From Frankia nepalensis (GTDB taxonomy: Bacteria; Actinomycetota; Actinomycetes; Frankiales; Frankiaceae): a stretch of DNA of 48,066 bases. Of this stretch, positions 3,133 through 30,349 are shown in pieces; the stretch's first letter is position 1, and each line of letters starts with the position of its first letter. A program made the position numbers and the translations under genes. The stretch spans positions 1 to 48,066 of the forward strand of contig NZ_JADWYU010000224.1 in assembly GCF_016786325.1 (NCBI RefSeq). The letters run 5' to 3'. The notes below the pieces were generated by a model, which saw only the letters and a program-made list of their open reading frames with translations, did no database searches and was not told where the DNA came from.

Positions 3133-3858
3133 TCACGTCCGCTGGGCGTGGGCCCGTTCTCCCACGGGCATCGGCACCGACGGCACCCCGGCGACGGGTG
3201 GGTCCTCGCCCGGCCGGTCGCGCCCCTCGGCGAGGCCGAGCAGGCGGTCGGCCAGCCGCGGGCCACTCGGGGCGGCGGCCCGGGCCAGGCCCCGCTGGAC
3301 CGTCCCCTCGAGGACGCCCCCGCCTTCCGGGCCGGGTTCCTGGTCGGACAGCGGCAGGGCGCGGCAGACGACCAGGATGGTGTCGTCGCCGGCGATTGTG
3401 CCCATGATCTCCGGCAGCGCGGCGCGGTCGAGCGCGGAGGCGAACAGCTGCGCGGCGCCCGGCGGGGTGCGCAGCACGACGAGGTCGCCGTTGGCCTCGG
3501 CGGAGACGAGCAGGTCCTCACACAGCCGGGACAGCGGCAGGCGCACCGTCTCGGCCGGGGCGAGCCCCGCGTCGACGGTGTAGACGAGCGTGCCGTCCTG
3601 TCCGCGAACCTTCGTGGCCCCCAGCTCCTCCAGGTCCCGCGACAGGGTCGCCTGGGTGACCCGGACGCCCTCGACGGCCAGCAGCCTGGCGAGTTCCGTC
3701 TGGGAGCGGACCGGGTGCGCCGAGATCAGTGCCGCGAGCCGCGCGTGCCGGGCGCGTTTGGTCAGCGGCGCCGCTGGCCTGGTCCCTGATGTCATGCCCG
3801 TCCCGGTGGTGTCCTGCGAGTGGAGGGTCCGTGAGTGGGGGTCCGTGAGTGGGGTCAT
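3133..3858 (-). CDS. argR: Arginine repressor ArgR with insertion and C-terminal extension
   Basis: ArgR is a hexameric arginine-dependent DNA-binding regulator of the arg genes. The winged-helix domain covers about residues 35-85 ([25 protein letters not shown]). The arginine-binding and oligomerisation domain covers 110-166 and ends in [11 protein letters not shown]. In family members the final helix (here [10 protein letters not shown], 201-210) follows soon after that strand. Here about 33 residues rich in Pro/Gly/Ala intervene (167-199), and a tail of about 30 residues follows, giving 241 aa against the usual 150-170. An alternative start is ATG at 3795 (MTSGTRP), which fits homologues better. 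The first 21 codons contain an exact 14-bp tandem duplication (3827-3854). Confidence 0.9.
3827..3854. repeat. 14-bp tandem duplication at the argR 5' end
   Basis: GTCCGTGAGTGGGG occurs twice in direct succession (3827-3840, 3841-3854). A 14-bp unit shifts the reading frame, so this segment is more likely a leader than conserved coding sequence, which favours the later argR start. Confidence 0.7.
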
Positions 3859-3935
3859 GGTCGGTGGTGAGCGTCGTTCGGCGCTGACGGCCGGGCCGGC
3901 CGTTAGGCGGCGGGCGACGGCGGAGTCGGGCGAGG

Positions 3936-6240
<2,305 letters not shown>

Positions 6241-6244
<4 letters not shown>

Positions 6245-7320
6245 GCGTGGCCTCCGGTCGGCGCGGTCGGCGCGGCGGGCTCGCCCGCGTCCTGTTGGTC
6301 GGGGCGCTGGGGGTCGGTTCCCCCGGAGGGCTTCGTCTTGAGGGCCGGGGTGATCAGGGTGCCCACGCCCTCGTCGGTGAAGATCTCCAGCAGGACGGCG
6401 TGCGGGACGCGGCCGTCGAGCACGTGGGCCTGCGGCACGCCGCCCTGGACGGCGCGCAGGCAGGCCTCCATCTTCGGGATCATCCCGGCGGTCAGGGTCG
6501 GGAGCATCGCCTCGAGCTCGATGGCGTCCAGCTCGCTGATCACCTCTTCGGAGCTCGGCCAGTCGGCGTAGAGCCCTTCGACGTCGGTGAGCACGACGAA
6601 CTTCCCGGCGCCGAGCGCGACCGCGAGCGCGGCGGCGGCCGTGTCCGCGTTGACGTTGTAGACGCCGCCGTCCTCGCCGCGGGCGACCGTGGCGATCACC
6701 GGGACCTTGCCCGAGTCCAGCAGCGCGTTGACCGTCTCCGGCGCGACCTCGACGACGTCGCCGACGAGGCCGATGTCGACCTCCTCGCCGTCGACGACCG
6801 CGGGGCGGCGCCGCGCGGTGAACATGTTCGCGTCCTCGCCGGACAGCCCGACGGCGAACGCGCCGTGGTTGTTCACCAGGCCGACGACGTCGCGGTTCAC
6901 CTGGCCGACGAGCACCATCCGGACGATCTGCATCGTCTCGGGCGTCGTGACCCGCAGGCCGCCGGTGAACTCGGACTTCACGCCCAGCCGGTCGAGGTGC
7001 GCGGTGATCTGCGGGCCGCCACCGTGCACGACGACGACCCGGATACCGGCGAGGCGCAGGAACACGACGTCCTCGGCGAACGCCTCCCGCAGCGCCGGTG
7101 AGGTCATCGCGTGGCCGCCGTATTTGATCACCACGGTGGCGCCGTGGAAGCGGGCGAGCCAGGGCAGCGCCTCGACGAGCACCCGCGTCTTCGGCAGCGC
7201 CGCGTGGCCCCGCGCGAGCGCGGACGGCTCGCGCGGCGGGACCGCGCGAGCCATCCGCGCGGCGGCCTCCGTGGCCGGCGGAGCGGTGGACGCGTCCTCG
7301 GCGTCGTTCGCGACCGTCAT
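6241..7320 (-). CDS. argB: Acetylglutamate kinase
   Basis: ArgB phosphorylates N-acetylglutamate, usually the arginine-feedback-controlled step. The amino-acid-kinase fold is shown by [36 protein letters not shown] and [12 protein letters not shown]. The ATG at 7320 is chosen because GGGGGA lies 7 nt upstream. A GTG at 7341 would add seven residues. The N-terminal segment of about 40 residues before [12 protein letters not shown] and the Pro/Thr-rich tail are longer than in Streptomyces. The end overlaps argD by 4 nt. Confidence 0.95.
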
Positions 7321-7408
7321 GACCCCATCCCCCGCATCCACGCCGTCTCGCGCGCCGTCTCGCGCCTGTCCGTGCTCGCGCGGCCCGCGCCGCGGACGCT
7401 GGGCGCGC

Positions 7409-8566
7409 TCACGTCGAGTACGCCGAGTTCTCGTAGACGTAGCCGTCGGTCAGATCGTTGGTCCAGATCGTCGCCTCGGCGGCGCCGGCGTGCAGGTTGG
7501 CGACGATGGTGATCTCACGGCCGGACAGGTCGACGAGGTCACGGGACTGGCCCGGCGCGCCGGCCCTGCACACCCAGATGCCATTCATCGCCACGTCGAG
7601 CTCGTCGGGCTCGAAGGCGGCGCTGGTGGTGCCGATCGCGGCGAGCACCCGGCCCCAGTTGGGGTCCTTGCCGTAGAGCGCGCACTTGAGCAGGTTGTTA
7701 CGGGCGATGGACCGGCCGACCTCGAGCGCGTCGTCCTCGGACGCGGCGCCGGTCACGGTGATCGCGATGTCCTTGGTGGCGCCCTCGGCGTCGCCGATCA
7801 TCTGCTTGCCGAGGTCCATGCAGACGTCGGTGACCAGCGCCGTGAGCTCCTCCTCGGGCAGGGTCACCCCGGACGCGCCGGAGGCCAGCAGCAGCACGGT
7901 GTCGTTGGTGGACAGGCAGCCGTCGGAGTCGATCCGCTGGAACGTCAGCCGGGTCGCCTCCGTCACCGCCCGGCGCAGCGTCCCCGCGTCGGCGACCGCG
8001 TCGGTCGTAACGACGACGAGCATGGTCGCGAGTGACGGCGCGAGCATCGCGGCGCCCTTGCCCATGCCACCCACCGTCACCGAGCCGTCCGCGGACGTCC
8101 GCGCCGCCTGCTTGCTGACGGTGTCGGTGGTCCGGATCGCCTCCGCGGCCGCCGGGCCGCCGTCCGTCGACAGCAGGTTCGTGACCCTGGTGACTCCGTT
8201 GAGCAGCAGGTCCATGGGCAGCCGGACGCCGATCAGGCCGGTCGAGCAGACTCCGACGTCGCCGGCGCCGATCCCGATCGCCCTGGCGACGTGCTCGGCG
8301 GTGTGGTGGGTGTCGGCGAACCCGTCCGGCCCCGTACAGGCGTTGGCGCCGCCGGAGTTGAGGACGACCGCGCGCAGGCGCCCGTCCGCCAGCGCCTGGC
8401 GGGTCCACTGGACGGGCGCGGCCTGCACCCGGTTGGTGGTGAACACGCCGGCCGCGGCGTCCGACGGCCCGTCGTTGACGACGAGCGCGACATCCGGACG
8501 CCCGGACGGCTTCAGCCCGGCCGCGACACCCGCGGCCCGGAAGCCCTTCGGGGCGGTGACGCTCAC
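7409..8566 (-). CDS. argJ: Bifunctional ornithine acetyltransferase / N-acetylglutamate synthase
   Basis: ArgJ recycles the acetyl group from N-acetylornithine to glutamate and may also use acetyl-CoA. It is made as a precursor that cleaves itself before a conserved Thr, seen here in [15 protein letters not shown] (Thr near residue 181). Other family marks are [20 protein letters not shown] and IATKDP-like text near the end ([10 protein letters not shown]). The start is GTG at 8566 with GAGGAAG upstream. The 385-aa length is normal. The cyclic pathway implied by argJ explains the absence of argE or argA here. Confidence 0.95.
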
Positions 8567-9969: not shown

Positions 9970-10914
9970 ATGGCGCTGACCATCCTGTTCGCCGTCTGCT
10001 ATCCGGTCGCCGTCGGCGTGACCGGCCTCGCGCTGTTGGCCCTGCGCCAGCGGATCCGCGGGCCGGGCTACTGGCCGCCGGTGGATCCCCAGCTGGTGCC
10101 GGTCGAGGAGCTCGCCCTGCTCGCCGGCGGGCCGCGCCGCGCCGCCGCCACCGCCGTCGTCCGGCTCTATGAGGCCGGCGCGATCGCGCCGTCTCAGGCC
10201 ACCGGACTCCTCGCGCCCGTCGGGCTGCCACCGATCGGGACGCACCCGATCTCCGCCGGCTGCTACGACCTGGTCCGCCAGGCGGGCCACGTGGACCCGC
10301 TCGCGGTCCGCCGCGCGGTCGCGACCAGCCCCGCGACGGACGCCACCCGCCGCGCCCTGGTGGCCAGCGGCCTGCTGCCCAGCCCGGCCAGCCGGCGGCT
10401 GCTGCTCGGTCTGCGTCGGCTCGCCGTCGCGCTGGCCGTCCTGGGTGTGGCGGCCTTTCTGGTGTCCGCCGTCGTCGACAGCCCGGTGAGCGCGGTGTTT
10501 GGCTTTCTGGTCCCGCTGACCGTGTTCATCGCGCTGGGGACCTCCCCGCCGCACCGCCGGTCCGGCGCCGCGCTGCTCGCCGCGGCCCGCCACCGGGCCT
10601 GGGCGCTGGCTGGCGGCGGGCTACCCGGCCAGCGGGCGCTGGCGGTGGCGGTGTTCGGCCCGGAGGCGCTCTGGAGCGCGGATCCGCGCCTCGCCGCCGG
10701 CCTCGGCGTCGTCCCAGCGGCACCGCGGCGAGGCGGCTCAGGTGGCGGCCACGGCTATCGAGGGGACTCCGGCTGTGCCAGCGCGGCCGGCTGCGGCGGG
10801 GGCGGCGGCTGCGGCACCGGTGGAGACGGCGGATCCAGTGACAGCGGATCCGGTGATAGCGGCGGATCCGGTGGCAGCGGGGGCGGCTGCGGCGGAGGCG
10901 GAGGCGGGGACTGA
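9970..10914 (+). CDS. TIGR04222-type membrane protein 1, Gly/Cys/Ser-rich tail
   Basis: The 314-aa product resembles the TIGR04222 family, whose function is unknown. It has an N-terminal membrane helix (about residues 3-24), a soluble domain with the family-like segments VDPQLVPVEELALLAGG, VVRLYEAGAI and GCYDLVRQAG, a pair of membrane helices (about 150-190), a helical segment with DPRLAAGLGV, and a low-complexity tail from about residue 258. The tail is rich in Gly, Ser and Asp and has several cysteines, but it ends in GGGGGGD rather than the Cys motif of the two other copies. It is divergent from argC and followed by a 13-bp-stem terminator. The start at 9970 places the membrane helix at the N terminus. 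Confidence 0.8.
   Translation: MALTILFAVCYPVAVGVTGLALLALRQRIRGPGYWPPVDPQLVPVEELALLAGGPRRAAATAVVRLYEAGAIAPSQATGLLAPVGLPPIGTHPISAGCYDLVRQAGHVDPLAVRRAVATSPATDATRRALVASGLLPSPASRRLLLGLRRLAVALAVLGVAAFLVSAVVDSPVSAVFGFLVPLTVFIALGTSPPHRRSGAALLAAARHRAWALAGGGLPGQRALAVAVFGPEALWSADPRLAAGLGVVPAAPRRGGSGGGHGYRGDSGCASAAGCGGGGGCGTGGDGGSSDSGSGDSGGSGGSGGGCGGGGGGD
10826..10890 (+). repeat. GGATCC-containing coding repeats in tail 1
   Basis: GGATCCAGTGACAGC, GGATCCGGTGATAGC and GGATCCGGTGGCAGC follow one another with small spacers and encode the Ser/Gly/Asp stretch. The similarity suggests recent slippage or duplication. Confidence 0.6.
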
Positions 10915-10964
10915 GGCCACCGAGCCCCCTCCCACCGCGGCGCCGCTCCCGCCGGCGCTCCGCA

Positions 10965-10993
10965 CGGGTGCGGCGGTCCAACCGCCGCACCCG
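10965..10993 (+). terminator. Strong stem-loop after TIGR04222 protein 1
   Basis: CGGGTGCGGCGGT and ACCGCCGCACCCG pair perfectly over 13 bp with a 3-nt loop (CCA), 51 nt after the stop. There is no U tract, as is common in actinobacteria. Confidence 0.7.
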
Positions 10994-11128
10994 CACTGGA
11001 TGTCGCATACCGGACAGCACCAGGCGCGACAGTTGCTCATCATCAGGATGCTCCCCAGCCCGAGACCGTCAGCTCCCTGCCCTCGTCCTCGGGATCCGCC
11101 CGTTCCACACGCGACAAGGACACCGCCC

Positions 11129-12154
11129 ATGTCGTCCGCCACGCTGGGCCTGTTGTGCTCCGTCGGCTTCCTCGCGCTGCTGTTCGCGGGAGCGTTGACC
11201 GCCCGGCGTCGCGCCCTCGCCCCGCGGCGACTGGCGCCGCGGGACCCGCGGCTGGTGTCGGTCGAGGACCTGGCGCTGCTCGGCGAGCAGTCCCCGACCG
11301 TCGCGACGGTCCTGCGCCTGCACGAGGCCGGGACCATCGGCCCAGGCCCGACGCCGGGCCGGCTGATGGTGACCGGCCGGCCACCCCCCGATCCGCGTCC
11401 GGTCGCGGCGTGCTGCGTCGAGGCCATCCGGTCAGCCGGGGAGTTGCCGTTCTCAGCCGTGTGCGGCGACGTGTCGTTCTCGACGTCCGACGGCGCGGCG
11501 GCGCCGTCGGTGCGCGGCGCCCCGGCAGAGGTCGCCGGGGCGATCGCCGCGAGCCATGACGGCCTGGTCGCCCGCGGGCTGGCCTGGAGGCCGGGCGGGC
11601 GCCGGCTGGCCCAGCACGCGGCCCGCGTCGGCTTCGCCGTCATGTACCTGGCCACCACCGCGCTCGTCGCGAACTTCGTCCTGCTCGCCATGGACCGGCC
11701 CGACTGGCCGGTCCTGCTTGGCCTGCTCGCCGTCACGGTGTTTCTGATGTTCGCGGCGCCCATCTCGCTCGGGGACCTCCACGAGCGCCCGCCAGCCGCC
11801 GGGGCGCTGCTGAAAGCGGCCCGCGAGCAGACCAGGCAGTCCTACGGCCGAGGCGACACCGGCCAGCTCGCGATCGTGGCGGCGCTGCTCGGCCCGTCCT
11901 ACGTCTGGGATGTCGATCCCGAGCTCGCGCCCCGTCTCGGCGTGCCCGATGGACGGTATGGCTACCAAGCGCCGATCCCGCGTCCAGGAGCAACTGACAG
12001 TGCTCCCGGCGGAGCGACGAGCCATGCGGCCAGCGGCTCCTCCGACGACGCCCGCGGCGCGGCCTGGATGGCCATCCTGACGGCACTGTCCGACGCGGAC
12101 CGTCAGGACAGTGGAGGCGGGAGCTGCGGAAGCGGATGCGGAGGCTGTGGCTGA
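11129..12154 (+). CDS. TIGR04222-type membrane protein 2, C-terminal Cys motif
   Basis: The 341-aa paralogue of the neighbours shows the same plan: N-terminal membrane helix (LGLLCSVGFLALLFAGAL), DPRLVSVEDLALLGEQ, VLRLHEAGTIGPG, a charged middle, paired membrane helices near residues 172-214, AREQTRQSYGRGD, and DPELAPRLGVPDGRYGY. The C terminus reads GGGSCGSGCGGCG and contains three cysteines. The ATG at 11129 has AAGGA 9 nt upstream. An in-frame extension back to 10742 would overlap gene 1 and lacks family similarity, so it was rejected. Function is unknown; the tail is a candidate substrate for the MNIO enzyme encoded next. Confidence 0.82.
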   Translation: MSSATLGLLCSVGFLALLFAGALTARRRALAPRRLAPRDPRLVSVEDLALLGEQSPTVATVLRLHEAGTIGPGPTPGRLMVTGRPPPDPRPVAACCVEAIRSAGELPFSAVCGDVSFSTSDGAAAPSVRGAPAEVAGAIAASHDGLVARGLAWRPGGRRLAQHAARVGFAVMYLATTALVANFVLLAMDRPDWPVLLGLLAVTVFLMFAAPISLGDLHERPPAAGALLKAAREQTRQSYGRGDTGQLAIVAALLGPSYVWDVDPELAPRLGVPDGRYGYQAPIPRPGATDSAPGGATSHAASGSSDDARGAAWMAILTALSDADRQDSGGGSCGSGCGGCG

Positions 12155-12367
12155 GCCGTCGGCCGGGTCCGCGAACCCGTGGGAGCGGCCCGGCGGGAGC
12201 CGGCCAGCGGGCAGGCCGGGCAGGACCGCCACCGCCGCGTTCCGCCCCGCGTCGGTTTCCGGACAGCGCCGGGGCGGCCCGTTGCGCACCATCTGTGGCG
12301 AAGGCACACCTGCGCACTCCGGTAACCCGCGCCGACGCGCGTCCACCTCGCAAGGAGGACAAGCCGG

Positions 12368-13315
12368 ATGATCTCTCCTCCCGCCACGAGACGCCGGGCC
12401 GACATCCCGGCTACGCCGGGTGACCCCGAGCCGCGCTCCGCCCCGGGGGCGGCGGTGACCGGGTTCGGGGTCGGGTGGCGGCCGGAGATCGCCGGGATGC
12501 TCGCGGCTCGCGCCGACCTCGGGTTCGTCGAGGTGATCGTCGAGAACATGCCCGGACGCGGCCCGCTGCCGCCGGCGCTGCTCGGCCTCGGCGTGCCGGT
12601 CGTGCCGCACGGCATCGGCCTGTCGCTGGGTGGCGCCGAGCCGCCCGAGGCAGCGCGGCTGCGCCGGATCGCGACCCTGGCCCAGGCCCTGGACGCGCCG
12701 CTCGTGAGCGAGCACGCCGCCTTCGTGCGCACCGGCGGGCACGAGGCCGGGCACCTGCTGCCGGTCCCCCACACCCGGGACGCGCTGGCCGTGCTGACCG
12801 CCAACGTCCGGATCGCGCGGGCCGAGCTGCCGGTGCCGCTCGCCCTGGAGAATCCCGCGTCGCTGCTGCGCTGGCCGGACAACGAGCTCACCCTCGCGGA
12901 CTTCCTCACCGAGCTGGCCGAACGGACGGACGCCCCGCTGCTCCTCGACATCTCGAACCTCTACGGCGACACCGTCAACCACGGCCTCGACCCGGCCACC
13001 ACGTTCGACCGGCTCCCCTGGGAACGCGTCGCCTACCTGCACGTCGCCGGGGGCGTCATGCTCGGTGAGCACTACCACGACACCCACCTGCACCGCGTCG
13101 GCCCGGGCCCGCTGGAGCTGCTGGCGGAGGCCGTCCGCCGGCTGCGCGCGCACGGCCGCTCGGGCCCCGGCCAGGCGGCCTACCTGCTGGAACGCGACGG
13201 CCACTACCCGCCGCCCAGCCGGTTGCACGACGAGCTCGACGAGGTCGTCACCGCCGCCGGCGACCGACCAGCCCGCCGCCCCCTGGCCCCGCCTCCGCCC
13301 GGAGCGCTCTGGTGA
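12368..13315 (+). CDS. DUF692 / MNIO-family multinuclear non-heme iron enzyme
   Basis: The 315-aa product matches the DUF692 (MNIO) family, TIM-barrel enzymes with two or three irons. Characterised relatives (MbnB, TglH, ChrH, bufferin enzymes) oxidatively alter cysteines in ribosomal peptides. Likely ligand positions are intact: VEVIVEN, VPHGIGLSLG, LVSEHAAF, LALENPAS, LLLDISNLY, YLHVAGG, DTHLH and the closing LLERDGHYPP. AAGGAGG lies 9 nt before the ATG. The stop overlaps the next gene by 4 nt (GTGA). It stands between TIGR04222 genes 2 and 3, a known association for this subfamily. The substrate is unproven; the Cys tails are the obvious candidates. Confidence 0.88.
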   Translation: MISPPATRRRADIPATPGDPEPRSAPGAAVTGFGVGWRPEIAGMLAARADLGFVEVIVENMPGRGPLPPALLGLGVPVVPHGIGLSLGGAEPPEAARLRRIATLAQALDAPLVSEHAAFVRTGGHEAGHLLPVPHTRDALAVLTANVRIARAELPVPLALENPASLLRWPDNELTLADFLTELAERTDAPLLLDISNLYGDTVNHGLDPATTFDRLPWERVAYLHVAGGVMLGEHYHDTHLHRVGPGPLELLAEAVRRLRAHGRSGPGQAAYLLERDGHYPPPSRLHDELDEVVTAAGDRPARRPLAPPPPGALW

Positions 13316-13851
13316 CCGCGGTCGGGCCGCCCTGCCCGGTCGGCCCGGTCGGCCCGGCCGGGCCGGCCGGCCTGCCGGACGTGGAGGCCGCGCGGACCCG
13401 GCTGGCGGCGGCGCAGGCGGAGCTGCTCGCGGCGCTCGTCGCCGGTGGCCCGGATCCCGACGGCTTCGACCGGGCGGCGCTGGCGGTCACCCGGCGCGCG
13501 CTGCTCGACAAGCGGCTGGCCGGCGTCGCCCGCCGGTGGCCCGCGCTCGCCGCCGAGCCTGGCTTCGCCGAGAAGTTCGCCGCCTTCGCCGCGACCAGGC
13601 CGCCGCTGGGCTCCCACCAGGACGGCCTGGCGTTCGCGGGGGCGCACCGCGCCGGGCTCACCGGGAACGCCCGCCGCGAGCTGCTGCTCGCGCGCGCCGC
13701 CACGCGCCGGTTCGCCCTCCTGGCCGACCGCCCCGGCGGCCGTGCCCTGGTCGCGGTCCGCGCCCCCGGCCTGGGCACCCGCCTCCTGTCCTTCCGTCTG
13801 TCCCTCCGTACGTCCCCGCGCGCTCCAGGACACGACAGCGACCCCGCCTGA
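13312..13851 (+). CDS. Small partner protein of the MNIO enzyme
   Basis: The 179-aa protein is translated from a GTG that overlaps the MNIO stop, so it is probably made in step with that enzyme. After a Pro/Gly/Val-rich start (about residues 5-23) it is helical and Ala/Arg-rich, with DVEAARTRLAAAQAELLAAL, a Pro-free middle (ALLDKRLAGVARRWPALA) and LLARAATRRFALLAD. It looks like the SCO6045-type proteins found beside DUF692 genes in Streptomyces; that link is from memory. MNIO enzymes generally need a small partner that presents the substrate, and this is the natural candidate. The first 20 codons are repetitive and the true start could be later. Confidence 0.7.
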   Translation: MTAVGPPCPVGPVGPAGPAGLPDVEAARTRLAAAQAELLAALVAGGPDPDGFDRAALAVTRRALLDKRLAGVARRWPALAAEPGFAEKFAAFAATRPPLGSHQDGLAFAGAHRAGLTGNARRELLLARAATRRFALLADRPGGRALVAVRAPGLGTRLLSFRLSLRTSPRAPGHDSDPA

Positions 13852-13896
13852 CCACGACGGCTCCCTCGCCCACGACGGTGACAAGGACGTCCTGCC

Positions 13897-14991
13897 ATGT
13901 CGACGATCACGTTGGTCTTCGTCTGCTACGTCGGGCTGCTCGCGCTGCTGTTCGCGGGAGCGCTCGCCGTCCGGCCGTGGCTGCTCCGCCAGGAGCGAGC
14001 ACGGCCGGACCCGCGCCGGGTACCCATCGAGGACCTGGCGCTGCTCAACCGGCAGCCGGTGGTCCTCGTCGGGATCCTGCGCCTGTACGACGCCGGCACG
14101 ATCGGCCCGGCCGCGGCGCCCGGGAAGCTGACGGTGACCGCGCAGCCGCCGGACGCCCTGCATCCGGTCACCGCGAGCTGCTACGAGGCGGTCCGCTCGG
14201 CCGGCGAGCTGCCGTTGTCCGCCATCCGTGACCACGCACAGGTCCTCGCGGCGAGGAACGCCGCGCGCAAGGCGCTGGACGCCTCGCTGCTCCCCAGCCC
14301 GGTCTATCGGCGGTTCGTCGGGGTGCTGGCCGCGTGCGCCGGCGGCCTGGGGCTCCTCACCAGCCTGGCGGTGCTCGCGGACATCGTCACGATCGCGGTC
14401 GATTCCGCCGATGTACCGCTTCTCCTGGGACTGATCGTCCCGATGATCGGCCTCACCCGGGGCGTCGGTGCCGCGCTCCCGCCGTCGGCACGCGCGAAGG
14501 ACGGGGCGGCGCGGCTTGGCGCCGCCTCGCTCGTCGCGCCCGCCCGCGAGCAGGTCCGACGGTCCTACGACGCCGGTGAGCTGGTCCCGCTCGCGGTCAT
14601 CGCCGCGTTGCTCGGCACGTCCGAGCTCTGGAAGGCCAATCCCGATCTCGCGCCGCGTCTCGGAGTGCCGGACGGGTCGTTCGGCTACCGGTCGCCGGAC
14701 AGGAAGATCCCGCCGAGAAGCTCCTCGAGGACCACGACGGGCTTCCCCGGCGCCACGGCCTACGTCCCCAGGAGCAGGACCGCCGCCTCTGCCTCCTCTG
14801 CCGCCTCCGACGGCTCCGACGGCTCCGACGGCTCCTCCCGGACCACGAGTGGCGGAAGCGGCCGCTCGTGGCGCCCAGCCGCGGGTGGCGTCTCCTGGGC
14901 CGACATCGCGCACGACCAGGCCACCTCGAACGACTCCGGCGGCCACAGCTGCGGCAGTGGGTGCGGCGGCGGCTGTGGTGGCTGCGGCTGA
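13897..14991 (+). CDS. TIGR04222-type membrane protein 3, C-terminal Cys motif
   Basis: The 364-aa third paralogue has an N-terminal membrane helix (VFVCYVGLLALLFAGALAV), DPRRVPIEDLALLNRQP, ILRLYDAGTIGPA, ASCYEAVRSAGELP, membrane helices near residues 143-190, AREQVRRSYDAGELVPL and NPDLAPRLGVPDGSFGY. A Ser/Thr/Asp-rich linker follows (about 270-335). The end reads HSCGSGCGGGCGGCG with four cysteines, nearly the same as protein 2. The start at 13897 lies 45 nt after the partner gene and has AAGGA upstream, as in gene 2. It converges on pheT. Confidence 0.83.
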   Translation: MSTITLVFVCYVGLLALLFAGALAVRPWLLRQERARPDPRRVPIEDLALLNRQPVVLVGILRLYDAGTIGPAAAPGKLTVTAQPPDALHPVTASCYEAVRSAGELPLSAIRDHAQVLAARNAARKALDASLLPSPVYRRFVGVLAACAGGLGLLTSLAVLADIVTIAVDSADVPLLLGLIVPMIGLTRGVGAALPPSARAKDGAARLGAASLVAPAREQVRRSYDAGELVPLAVIAALLGTSELWKANPDLAPRLGVPDGSFGYRSPDRKIPPRSSSRTTTGFPGATAYVPRSRTAASASSAASDGSDGSDGSSRTTSGGSGRSWRPAAGGVSWADIAHDQATSNDSGGHSCGSGCGGGCGGCG

Positions 14992-29847: not shown

Positions 29848-30004
29848 CCGCCCCTGCGTCCTTCCCGTCCGGCGCACGGGCCGGGATGCGACGGGAGACG
29901 CCACGCGGGTCCATCGTCGACATGGCGGGCCCTGAGGGCCGGACGCCGACGCGACGGGCGCACGGAGCGACGGGCATGCCCGCCCCGTGACCCGGGGTCC
30001 CCGC

Positions 30005-30127
30005 GCGCTGCCTCCCATCCGGACTTTCACCGTCGGTCCCGGAATTCCACCGGGTCCACCGCCCACTGGTTGTGGGACGGGTCGCGGACTGTCACCGCCG
30101 GCTCGGAGTTTCACCGACCCCGGAGCG
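30005..30127 (-). promoter_or_regulatory. FMN riboswitch (RFN element)
   Basis: Read on the minus strand, the conserved RFN blocks occur in order: GGGGTCGGTGAAACTCCG, CCGGCGGTGACAGTCCGCGA, a variable arm, CCGGTGGAATTCCGGGACCG, ACGGTGAAAGTCCGGATGGG and AGGCAGCGCG. The outer GCGC ends pair. FMN binding should lower expression of ribE-ribBA-ribH. Downstream, GGCCC/GGGCC (about 29928-29940) and CGGGCATGCCCG (29971-29982) could form the expression platform. Confidence 0.95.
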
Positions 30128-30349
30128 CGCGTGCTGCTGTGTGTTGCCCGGCCGGTTCCCCGGCCCGGGCTTTTTGGCGGGCACCGTGGTGCCCACGGAC
30201 GAGTCTGGCACACAAGCCGGGCCAACGTCGCAGCTCGGCTGTCCGAGATGTCCCCGACGCGCCAATTGCGCGCCGGCGCGCGCACGACGTGGGCGACGTC
30301 ACCAATCCCCCGTCACCCGCCGGTCCGCCGTCACCCGCCGGTTCGACGG

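Follow-up and report, generated by a model that had tools for sequence, protein, structure and literature searches.

MNIO (DUF692) enzymes are known to act on peptides and on small exported precursors. Methanobactin is a free short peptide that is exported as a copper chelator, and MbnC, from its biosynthetic pathway, is a known MNIO partner; the TglH/TglI and ApyH systems perform other peptide chemistry. The cluster studied here lies in a 48,066-nucleotide stretch of contig NZ_JADWYU010000224.1 from the soil actinobacterium Frankia nepalensis (termed the window) and combines an MNIO gene and a small partner gene with three genes for paralogous TIGR04222 membrane proteins that end in Cys-containing tails. 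Such clusters have been published, and with three paralogues this one is unusual. The main text of Antoine et al. 2025 (PMC12452194) describes TIGR04222 proteins as frequent MNIO neighbors, proposes some of them as substrates, places their Gly/Ser/Cys tails in the periplasm, and states that at least 10% of TIGR04222 clusters have a PME-type 2 partner. According to the same text, 490 of 1372 TIGR04222-bearing genomes are without an MNIO, and a C-proximal Cys is missing from over a quarter of the TIGR04222 proteins. An earlier note on this DNA, written from the sequence alone, had proposed that the tails are the MNIO substrates; the association it invoked is thus known, and since Antoine et al. 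propose TIGR04222 substrates, its core idea had already been published. Our comparison of related loci makes it probable, in our judgment, that a cytosolic MNIO and its PME-like partner form a minimal modification unit acting on a portable C-terminal Cys tail and not on a particular protein.

Carriers of the Cys tail at the argC-pheT site

Five genes on the + strand occupy the interval between argC and pheT:

9970..10914, +, TIGR-A, a TIGR04222 membrane protein of 314 amino acids (aa) with a Cys/Gly tail (TIGR04222 model, 102.5 bits; cut-off, 43)
10771..10911, +, Cys/Gly/Ser tail of TIGR-A (Cys 269, 275, 281, and 307)
11129..12154, +, TIGR-B, a TIGR04222 membrane protein of 341 aa (TIGR04222 model, 48.5 bits; cut-off, 43)
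12107..12151, +, Cys/Gly tail of TIGR-B (Cys 333, 337, and 340)
12368..13315, +, MNIO (DUF692) oxidase of 315 aa (PF05114, 231 bits; cut-off, 25)
13312..13851, +, small PME-like partner of 179 aa with a GTG start (family present in 66/70 strong MNIO loci, defined below)
13897..14991, +, TIGR-C, a diverged TIGR04222 paralogue of 364 aa (no match to the NCBIfam model; assigned by profile and tree)
14932..14988, +, Cys/Gly tail of TIGR-C (Cys 352, 356, 360, and 363)

The partner start overlaps the MNIO stop, an AAGGAGG motif lies at about position 12352, upstream of the MNIO start, and the GC content at third codon positions is 0.88 to 0.95 across all five genes. The flanking genes are presumably argJ/argC and pheT/pheS, as we named them from their sequences. 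Translations, the PF05114 match, and the profiles confirm the layout given in the earlier note: an intact MNIO and an overlapping partner among three paralogous membrane proteins, on one strand of the argC-pheT interval. TIGR-C, which the NCBIfam model does not match, shares 49% identity with TIGR-B in the alignment, was recovered when a profile started from the three paralogues was iterated, and groups with TIGR-B (Shimodaira-Hasegawa-like approximate likelihood ratio test [SH-aLRT], 99) and with TIGR-A plus TIGR-B (SH-aLRT, 94); we therefore consider it a paralogue overlooked by the curated model. An AlphaFold2 model of TIGR-C with two paralogues had a predicted local distance difference test (pLDDT) score of 45.7 and was set aside. 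The tails contain four (TIGR-A), three (TIGR-B), and four (TIGR-C) Cys in Gly/Ser context. TIGR-B ends in SCGSGCGGCG and TIGR-C in SCGSGCGGGCGGCG, so that the SCGSGCGG type earlier ascribed to all three proteins holds for these two; the tail of TIGR-A is looser, with four Cys spread over ∼46 residues and GGGCGGGGGGD at its end.

Using tblastn with the window argC and pheT to locate the site, we found argC, MNIO, and pheT together at 16 other Frankiaceae loci. A Cys-tailed TIGR04222 protein is encoded at 10 of them and a single-transmembrane (single-TM) Cys-tailed protein at 4, with a Cys-less TIGR04222 protein (genome G025) and no carrier (genome G001) at one locus each. The single-TM carriers at the site have 60 to 99 aa and are encoded between MNIO and partner (in G003, G004, G005, which has two, and G006). 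G001 has a Cys-tailed TIGR04222 protein elsewhere in the genome, and the genus-mates G003 to G006 likewise keep one at another site. More single-TM carriers occur in G019, G032, G033 (L142, Candidatus Frankia nodulisporulans), and G108. Judged by a small codon test, the single-TM carrier genes look real: over the first 36 codons of the G004, G005, and G006 genes, third positions account for 9/14, 11/15, and 6/11 of the differences in three comparisons, and 3 of the 7 differences between the G032 and G033 genes are at third positions. Other carriers have no hydrophobic segment, namely, a 452- to 476-codon frame without a Pfam match in G020 and G026 and an additional short protein in G154. Membrane fixing, which the earlier note had made part of the system, is thus not a rule, as proteins without a TM segment carry the same tail.

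The window family (Frankiaceae; f1, 35 genomes with that of the window included) has a TIGR04222 match in 20 genomes, all 20 of which also have an MNIO match. Six f1 genomes have an MNIO match without a TIGR04222 match; five of these have the tail on a different protein, and in the remaining one, G030, all MNIO matches are fragmentary. In G012 the MNIO is gone from the site, and the MNIO remaining elsewhere covers only part of PF05114. At the site in this genome (L088), a Cys-tailed TIGR04222 frame reads through into sequence resembling the partner, which would fit a deletion of the MNIO.

The replacement of one carrier by another is directly visible in the gene content of these loci. The comparison indicates that what moves between carriers in this cluster is the Cys tail, and because the tail is retained beside MNIO and partner while the carrier protein is replaced, it is the best candidate for the MNIO substrate. 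The choice of the tail as the obvious substrate, made earlier from the window alone, is backed to that extent.

MNIO, partner, and tail cysteines across the survey

We searched TIGR04222 and PF05114 in 58 relatives and 296 genomes of the class; among the class genomes, 100 match TIGR04222 and 66 match PF05114 at an E value of 0.001. From these, 80 MNIO stretches and 60 TIGR04222-only stretches were fetched, and the three families were found again with profiles grown from the window proteins. Nine fetched loci yielded no TIGR or MNIO open reading frame (ORF) with these profiles; one of 111 TIGR ORFs, running off its locus, was left out, and about a dozen class matches far under the TIGR04222 cut-off were left unfetched. 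Loci with an MNIO of at least 300 bits were termed strong (n = 70, window included).

The window MNIO is the sole PF05114 match in its genome (97% complete). Fourteen His/Asp/Glu/Asn/Arg positions are kept in 69 to 70 of the 70 MNIO sequences and two more polar positions in 67 to 68; H81, H116, E161, D194, H225, D238, and H240 are present in all 70 and E275 in 69. The conserved His, Asp, and Glu residues could form a metal site. The nearest named NCBIfam models, BufB, HvfB, and ApyH, are all far under their cut-offs; the best-scoring one, the BufB equivalog model NF050167, gives 165.8 bits (cut-off, 310), and the ApyH model gives 96.4 bits (cut-off, 400). The relatives in the PDB are 3bww and 8hci (a TglH-type chain; E value, 1.5e-14).

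The partner family adjoins the MNIO in 66 of the 70 strong loci. No Pfam family matched the window partner, and a DUF2063 match was found in 1 of 26 scanned relatives, with an E value of 0.18. The alignment of 26 members conserves Q15, L44, K47, R48, P57, L59, and D84. An AlphaFold2 model built from two sequences (pLDDT, 77.5) is helical and then has three C-terminal strands; in a Foldseek search of 350,542 chains its top match was MbnC (7fc0_C, from the MbnABC complex; E value, 0.085; probability, 0.89; template-modeling score, 0.36), which suggests a likeness to MbnC, not significant by itself. VIA-align gave the model a best Z score of 7.2 and no MNIO partner among the 50 matches listed, and when the partner alignment (26 of 69 sequences) was searched as a profile against the PDB, no match had an E value below 0.41.

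The 66 MNIO-partner loci comprise 38 with a Cys-tailed TIGR04222 protein, 10 whose only Cys-tailed protein is of another kind, 12 with a Cys-less TIGR04222 protein alone, and 6 with none of these. In the Streptomyces-like family f18 (24 loci) the respective numbers are 9, 0, 11, and 4, and outside f18 (42 loci) they are 29, 10, 1, and 2, so that a Cys tail is encoded in cis at 39/42 loci. The two non-f18 loci with no carrier in cis belong to G001 and to the second MNIO of G006, and both genomes have Cys-tailed proteins elsewhere. The 11 f18 clusters with a Cys-less TIGR04222 protein alone show that MNIO and partner can be maintained when no Cys tail is encoded in cis. Since their Cys-less TIGR04222 protein is a separate paralogue that adjoins the Cys-tailed one in four genomes (G194, G202, G280, and G301), it is plausible that these clusters once had the tailed paralogue and lost it. 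A search for a Cys-tailed protein in trans in 15 f18 genomes (query P0008) gave matches in 4 of them, three being genes already in the class survey with a single-Cys tail and one a 53-residue fragment, and did not rescue the f18 clusters. Two further features of f18 were seen. Four loci (L098, L115, L119, and L123) encode short TIGR04222-like proteins with a Gly-rich tail containing one Cys, those of L119 and L123 having no hydrophobic segment, and three Streptomyces-like clusters (L070, L072, and L076) have a Cys-poor, DUF4142-like gene between the partner and the Cys-less TIGR04222 gene.

We then compared the tails of genomes with and without MNIO. TIGR04222 tails of MNIO-less genomes are often rich in Gly, Ser, and Asp and have almost no Cys. 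Among tails whose last 30 residues contain at least 70% Gly/Ser/Ala/Asp/Cys, Cys accounts for 187 of 1650 residues in MNIO-containing genomes (11.3%; 55 tails) and 4 of 480 in MNIO-less ones (0.8%; 16 tails). By genome, 44/59 with MNIO and 2/26 without (G109 and G203) were scored as Cys tailed. The Cys-tailed gene of G109 adjoins, at the edge of a contig, an MNIO fragment of 37 bits, and the MNIO-less genomes with TIGR04222-type genes were therefore counted as 25. No clear Cys tail was seen in these 25: 24 are without one, and the tail of G203, flagged by the rule, is by eye not a Gly/Cys tail. The survey thus agrees with the link between tail cysteines and MNIO drawn in the earlier note; in the sample, the same tail does not recur in genomes lacking DUF692. 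A Fisher test on genomes gave P = 6e-9 for the presence of a Cys tail versus that of MNIO, which we did not take as proof, as the association amounts essentially to one split on the TIGR04222 tree (83 of 110 rows, those with a near full-length domain), with three independent pairs (sign test, P = 1). The statistics therefore cannot carry the case, which rests on the carrier swap.

These counts also bear on the idea that Gly/Cys tails are products of drift in GC-rich, low-complexity repeats and have no functional tie to MNIO. A single base change turns a Gly codon (GGY) into a Cys codon (TGY), tail lengths vary freely, and the tree offers few independent contrasts. However, tails that are similarly Gly rich differ in Cys content, 0.8% without MNIO against 11.3% with it, and the tail reappears on another protein in five of the six f1 genomes with MNIO and no TIGR04222 match. 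We hold chance to be a very improbable explanation.

In a phylum sample of 256 genomes (E value, 1e-5), TIGR04222 matched in 27 and MNIO in 15. The only genomes outside the class to pass the TIGR04222 cut-off were G315 and G329; G315 has a TIGR04222-MNIO-partner cluster with one tail Cys, and the G329 locus is truncated by the end of its contig. When 28 representative loci were compared, roughly and without Pfam scans of the neighbors, there was no extra conserved neighbor beyond family-level synteny (f17; arg/phe in Frankiaceae), except one gene ∼4.5 to 6 kb from the MNIO that is common to five f18 loci and G263. Large unlabeled neighbor clusters were discarded as antisense frames of MNIO and, via shadow frames, of TIGR04222.

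MNIO genes are found in another setting at two loci. L077 (G252) has, at ∼3740 to 7480, a short protein ending in SSCGGCNGCMGCSM, an asparagine-synthetase-like gene (by eye), and then an MNIO. In L035 (G300), an MNIO of another type is overlapped at its start by a Cys-rich frame (6117 to 6794); a gene that looks ferritin-like by eye follows downstream, and a partner of the window family is absent. Apart from the cluster, the window contains a flavin mononucleotide riboswitch (89.9 bits) at 30003 to 30132 on the − strand.

Membrane side of the tail

The TIGR04222 domain has three hydrophobic segments (TM1 to TM3). In the 83 near full-length domains, the mean number of Lys plus Arg (K+R) is 3.33 after TM1, 2.64 before TM2, and 4.69 after TM3, the presumed inner segments, against 0.06 at the N terminus and 0.47 in the TM2-TM3 loop, the presumed outer parts. 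The segments are unequal in length (18, 13, and 21 inner versus 5 and 8 outer), and K+R per residue is still ∼0.19 to 0.22 versus 0.01 to 0.06. Total K+R was observed to be higher in the presumed inner parts than in the presumed outer ones in 83/83 domains. K+R exceeds Asp plus Glu (D+E) in 55, 66, and 73 of the 83 domains for the three inner segments, in that order, and is below D+E in the loop of 40/83. All nine single-TM carriers have 4 to 7 Lys/Arg after the TM segment and 0 to 1 before it, a Lys near the N-terminal end of the segment being counted within the TM window in G032 and G033. With the thresholds used, carriers without a TM segment are present in G020, G026, G109, and G154, that of G109 being TIGR04222 type; G100 and G122 are borderline.

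A profile of the soluble core, built from 21 of 79 eligible TIGR04222-type sequences, matched winged-helix regulators in the PDB (best E value, 0.0042); among the matches listed, 12/13 are helix-turn-helix regulators and the other is RNase III. Single core members match HTH_20 (2e-6), GPP34 (4e-4), and MarR_2 (7e-4), and no Pfam family matched the core of the window's own TIGR04222 proteins. The weak similarity to GPP34 (Golgi phosphoprotein 3) was seen in 3 of the 21 members.

Based on the charge distribution, the carriers without a TM segment, and the winged-helix-like core, we predict that the Cys tail is probably on the cytosolic side, where the enzyme is, as opposed to the published periplasmic placing. 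In the main text of PMC12452194, the tails are inferred from AlphaFold2 models to be periplasmic and are likened to bufferins; MNIO-modified tails exposed to the periplasm would then chelate extracytoplasmic copper, and BufB is indeed the NCBIfam MNIO model that the window enzyme matches best, at 165.8 bits under a cut-off of 310. We nevertheless regard this arrangement as unlikely, given the charge asymmetry in 83/83 domains and 9/9 single-TM carriers, the tails on proteins that have no hydrophobic segment, the winged-helix-like core, and a partner that does not reach DUF2063 by Pfam.

The proposed unit and known MNIO systems

In the unit that we propose, the MNIO iron oxidase would be cytosolic, and the small PME-like partner would present substrates to it. 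We infer that the substrate is the portable C-terminal tail, with its Cys in Gly/Ser (sometimes His) context. It is carried here by the three paralogues, each with three TM segments and a winged-helix-like core predicted to be cytosolic, and in relatives by single-TM proteins or proteins without a TM segment. By analogy with bufferins and methanobactin, the MNIO may oxidize the tail Cys to products of the thiooxazole or oxazolone/thioamide type, a guess as to the chemistry, and the product could be a tag at the cytosolic membrane surface that binds soft metals or is redox active, the metal role being likewise a guess. More tentatively, the matured tail might be a transferable cytosolic tag, passed between unrelated proteins in evolution, that on TIGR04222 arms a winged-helix protein tethered to the membrane; this protein could be a regulator that responds to metals or redox state, and the system would then not make a secreted metallophore.

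Several observations weigh against the proposed unit. Eleven f18 clusters pair MNIO and partner with only a Cys-less TIGR04222 protein, and four further f18 loci have no TIGR04222 gene in the fetched stretch, one of them being cut at a contig end; in G025, MNIO and partner adjoin a Cys-less Gly/Ser tail. To these are added the single split behind the tail-MNIO association, the weak relation of the partner to MbnC and DUF2063, the uneven charge pattern (K+R above D+E after TM1 in only 55/83), the AlphaFold2-based periplasmic placing, and the rough check without Pfam scans, in which no recurring metal-handling neighbor was identified. The 11 f18 clusters and G025 would also suit tails that bind metal or form disulfides unmodified while MNIO and partner act elsewhere, e.g., on a residue of the TIGR04222 body or on a protein in trans, and some MNIOs modify non-Cys residues, according to the main text of PMC12452194. 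Such a division of roles seems improbable to us, as the tail is kept through carrier changes at one site and Cys is scarce in the Gly-rich tails of MNIO-less genomes.

If the tail does stay with the enzyme through the carrier swap, it would mean protein tagging by the chemistry of ribosomally synthesized and posttranslationally modified peptides, and an inner-face orientation, if true, would change the purpose of the tag. The Frankiaceae series, with one site, one enzyme, and different carriers, offers ready-made candidate substrates, including a 60-aa single-pass protein. For the carrier swap with the 39/42 loci that have a tail in cis, the 66/70 partner link with its weak MbnC match, the probable cytosolic side of the tail, and the lack of a clear Cys tail in the 25 MNIO-less genomes, we found no counterpart in the literature searched, which included parts of the main text of PMC12452194; the very small adjamnio-V proteins that its main text describes after MNIO may include single-TM carriers.

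Among known systems, methanobactin is alike in that the MNIO MbnB acts with a small partner, MbnC, the top structural match of the window partner model (E value, 0.085). It differs in being a free short peptide, whereas in the window and its relatives the candidate substrate is usually a tail at the C terminus of a protein. TglH/TglI (pearlin) and ApyH share with the window an MNIO with a partner, and their substrates are without signal peptides, according to the main text of PMC12452194; only their MNIO is similar to that of the window. The bufferins (Buf1/Buf2, with BufB and a DUF2063 partner) also combine an MNIO and a partner with Cys-rich gene products. Their precursors have Sec signal peptides and their partners are of the DUF2063 type, as the same text states, whereas the window partner has no Pfam match and the window MNIO is under the BufB cut-off. 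The TIGR04222-MNIO clusters of that text are closest, sharing the enzyme family, Cys-tailed membrane proteins, and short PME-type 2 partners. Compared with them, the window has three TIGR04222 paralogues around one MNIO, and at the same site in relatives the tail is found on other carriers as well; the partner is present in 66/70 strong MNIO loci here versus at least 10% of TIGR04222 clusters there, on a different denominator, and the tail is argued to be cytosolic here and periplasmic there.

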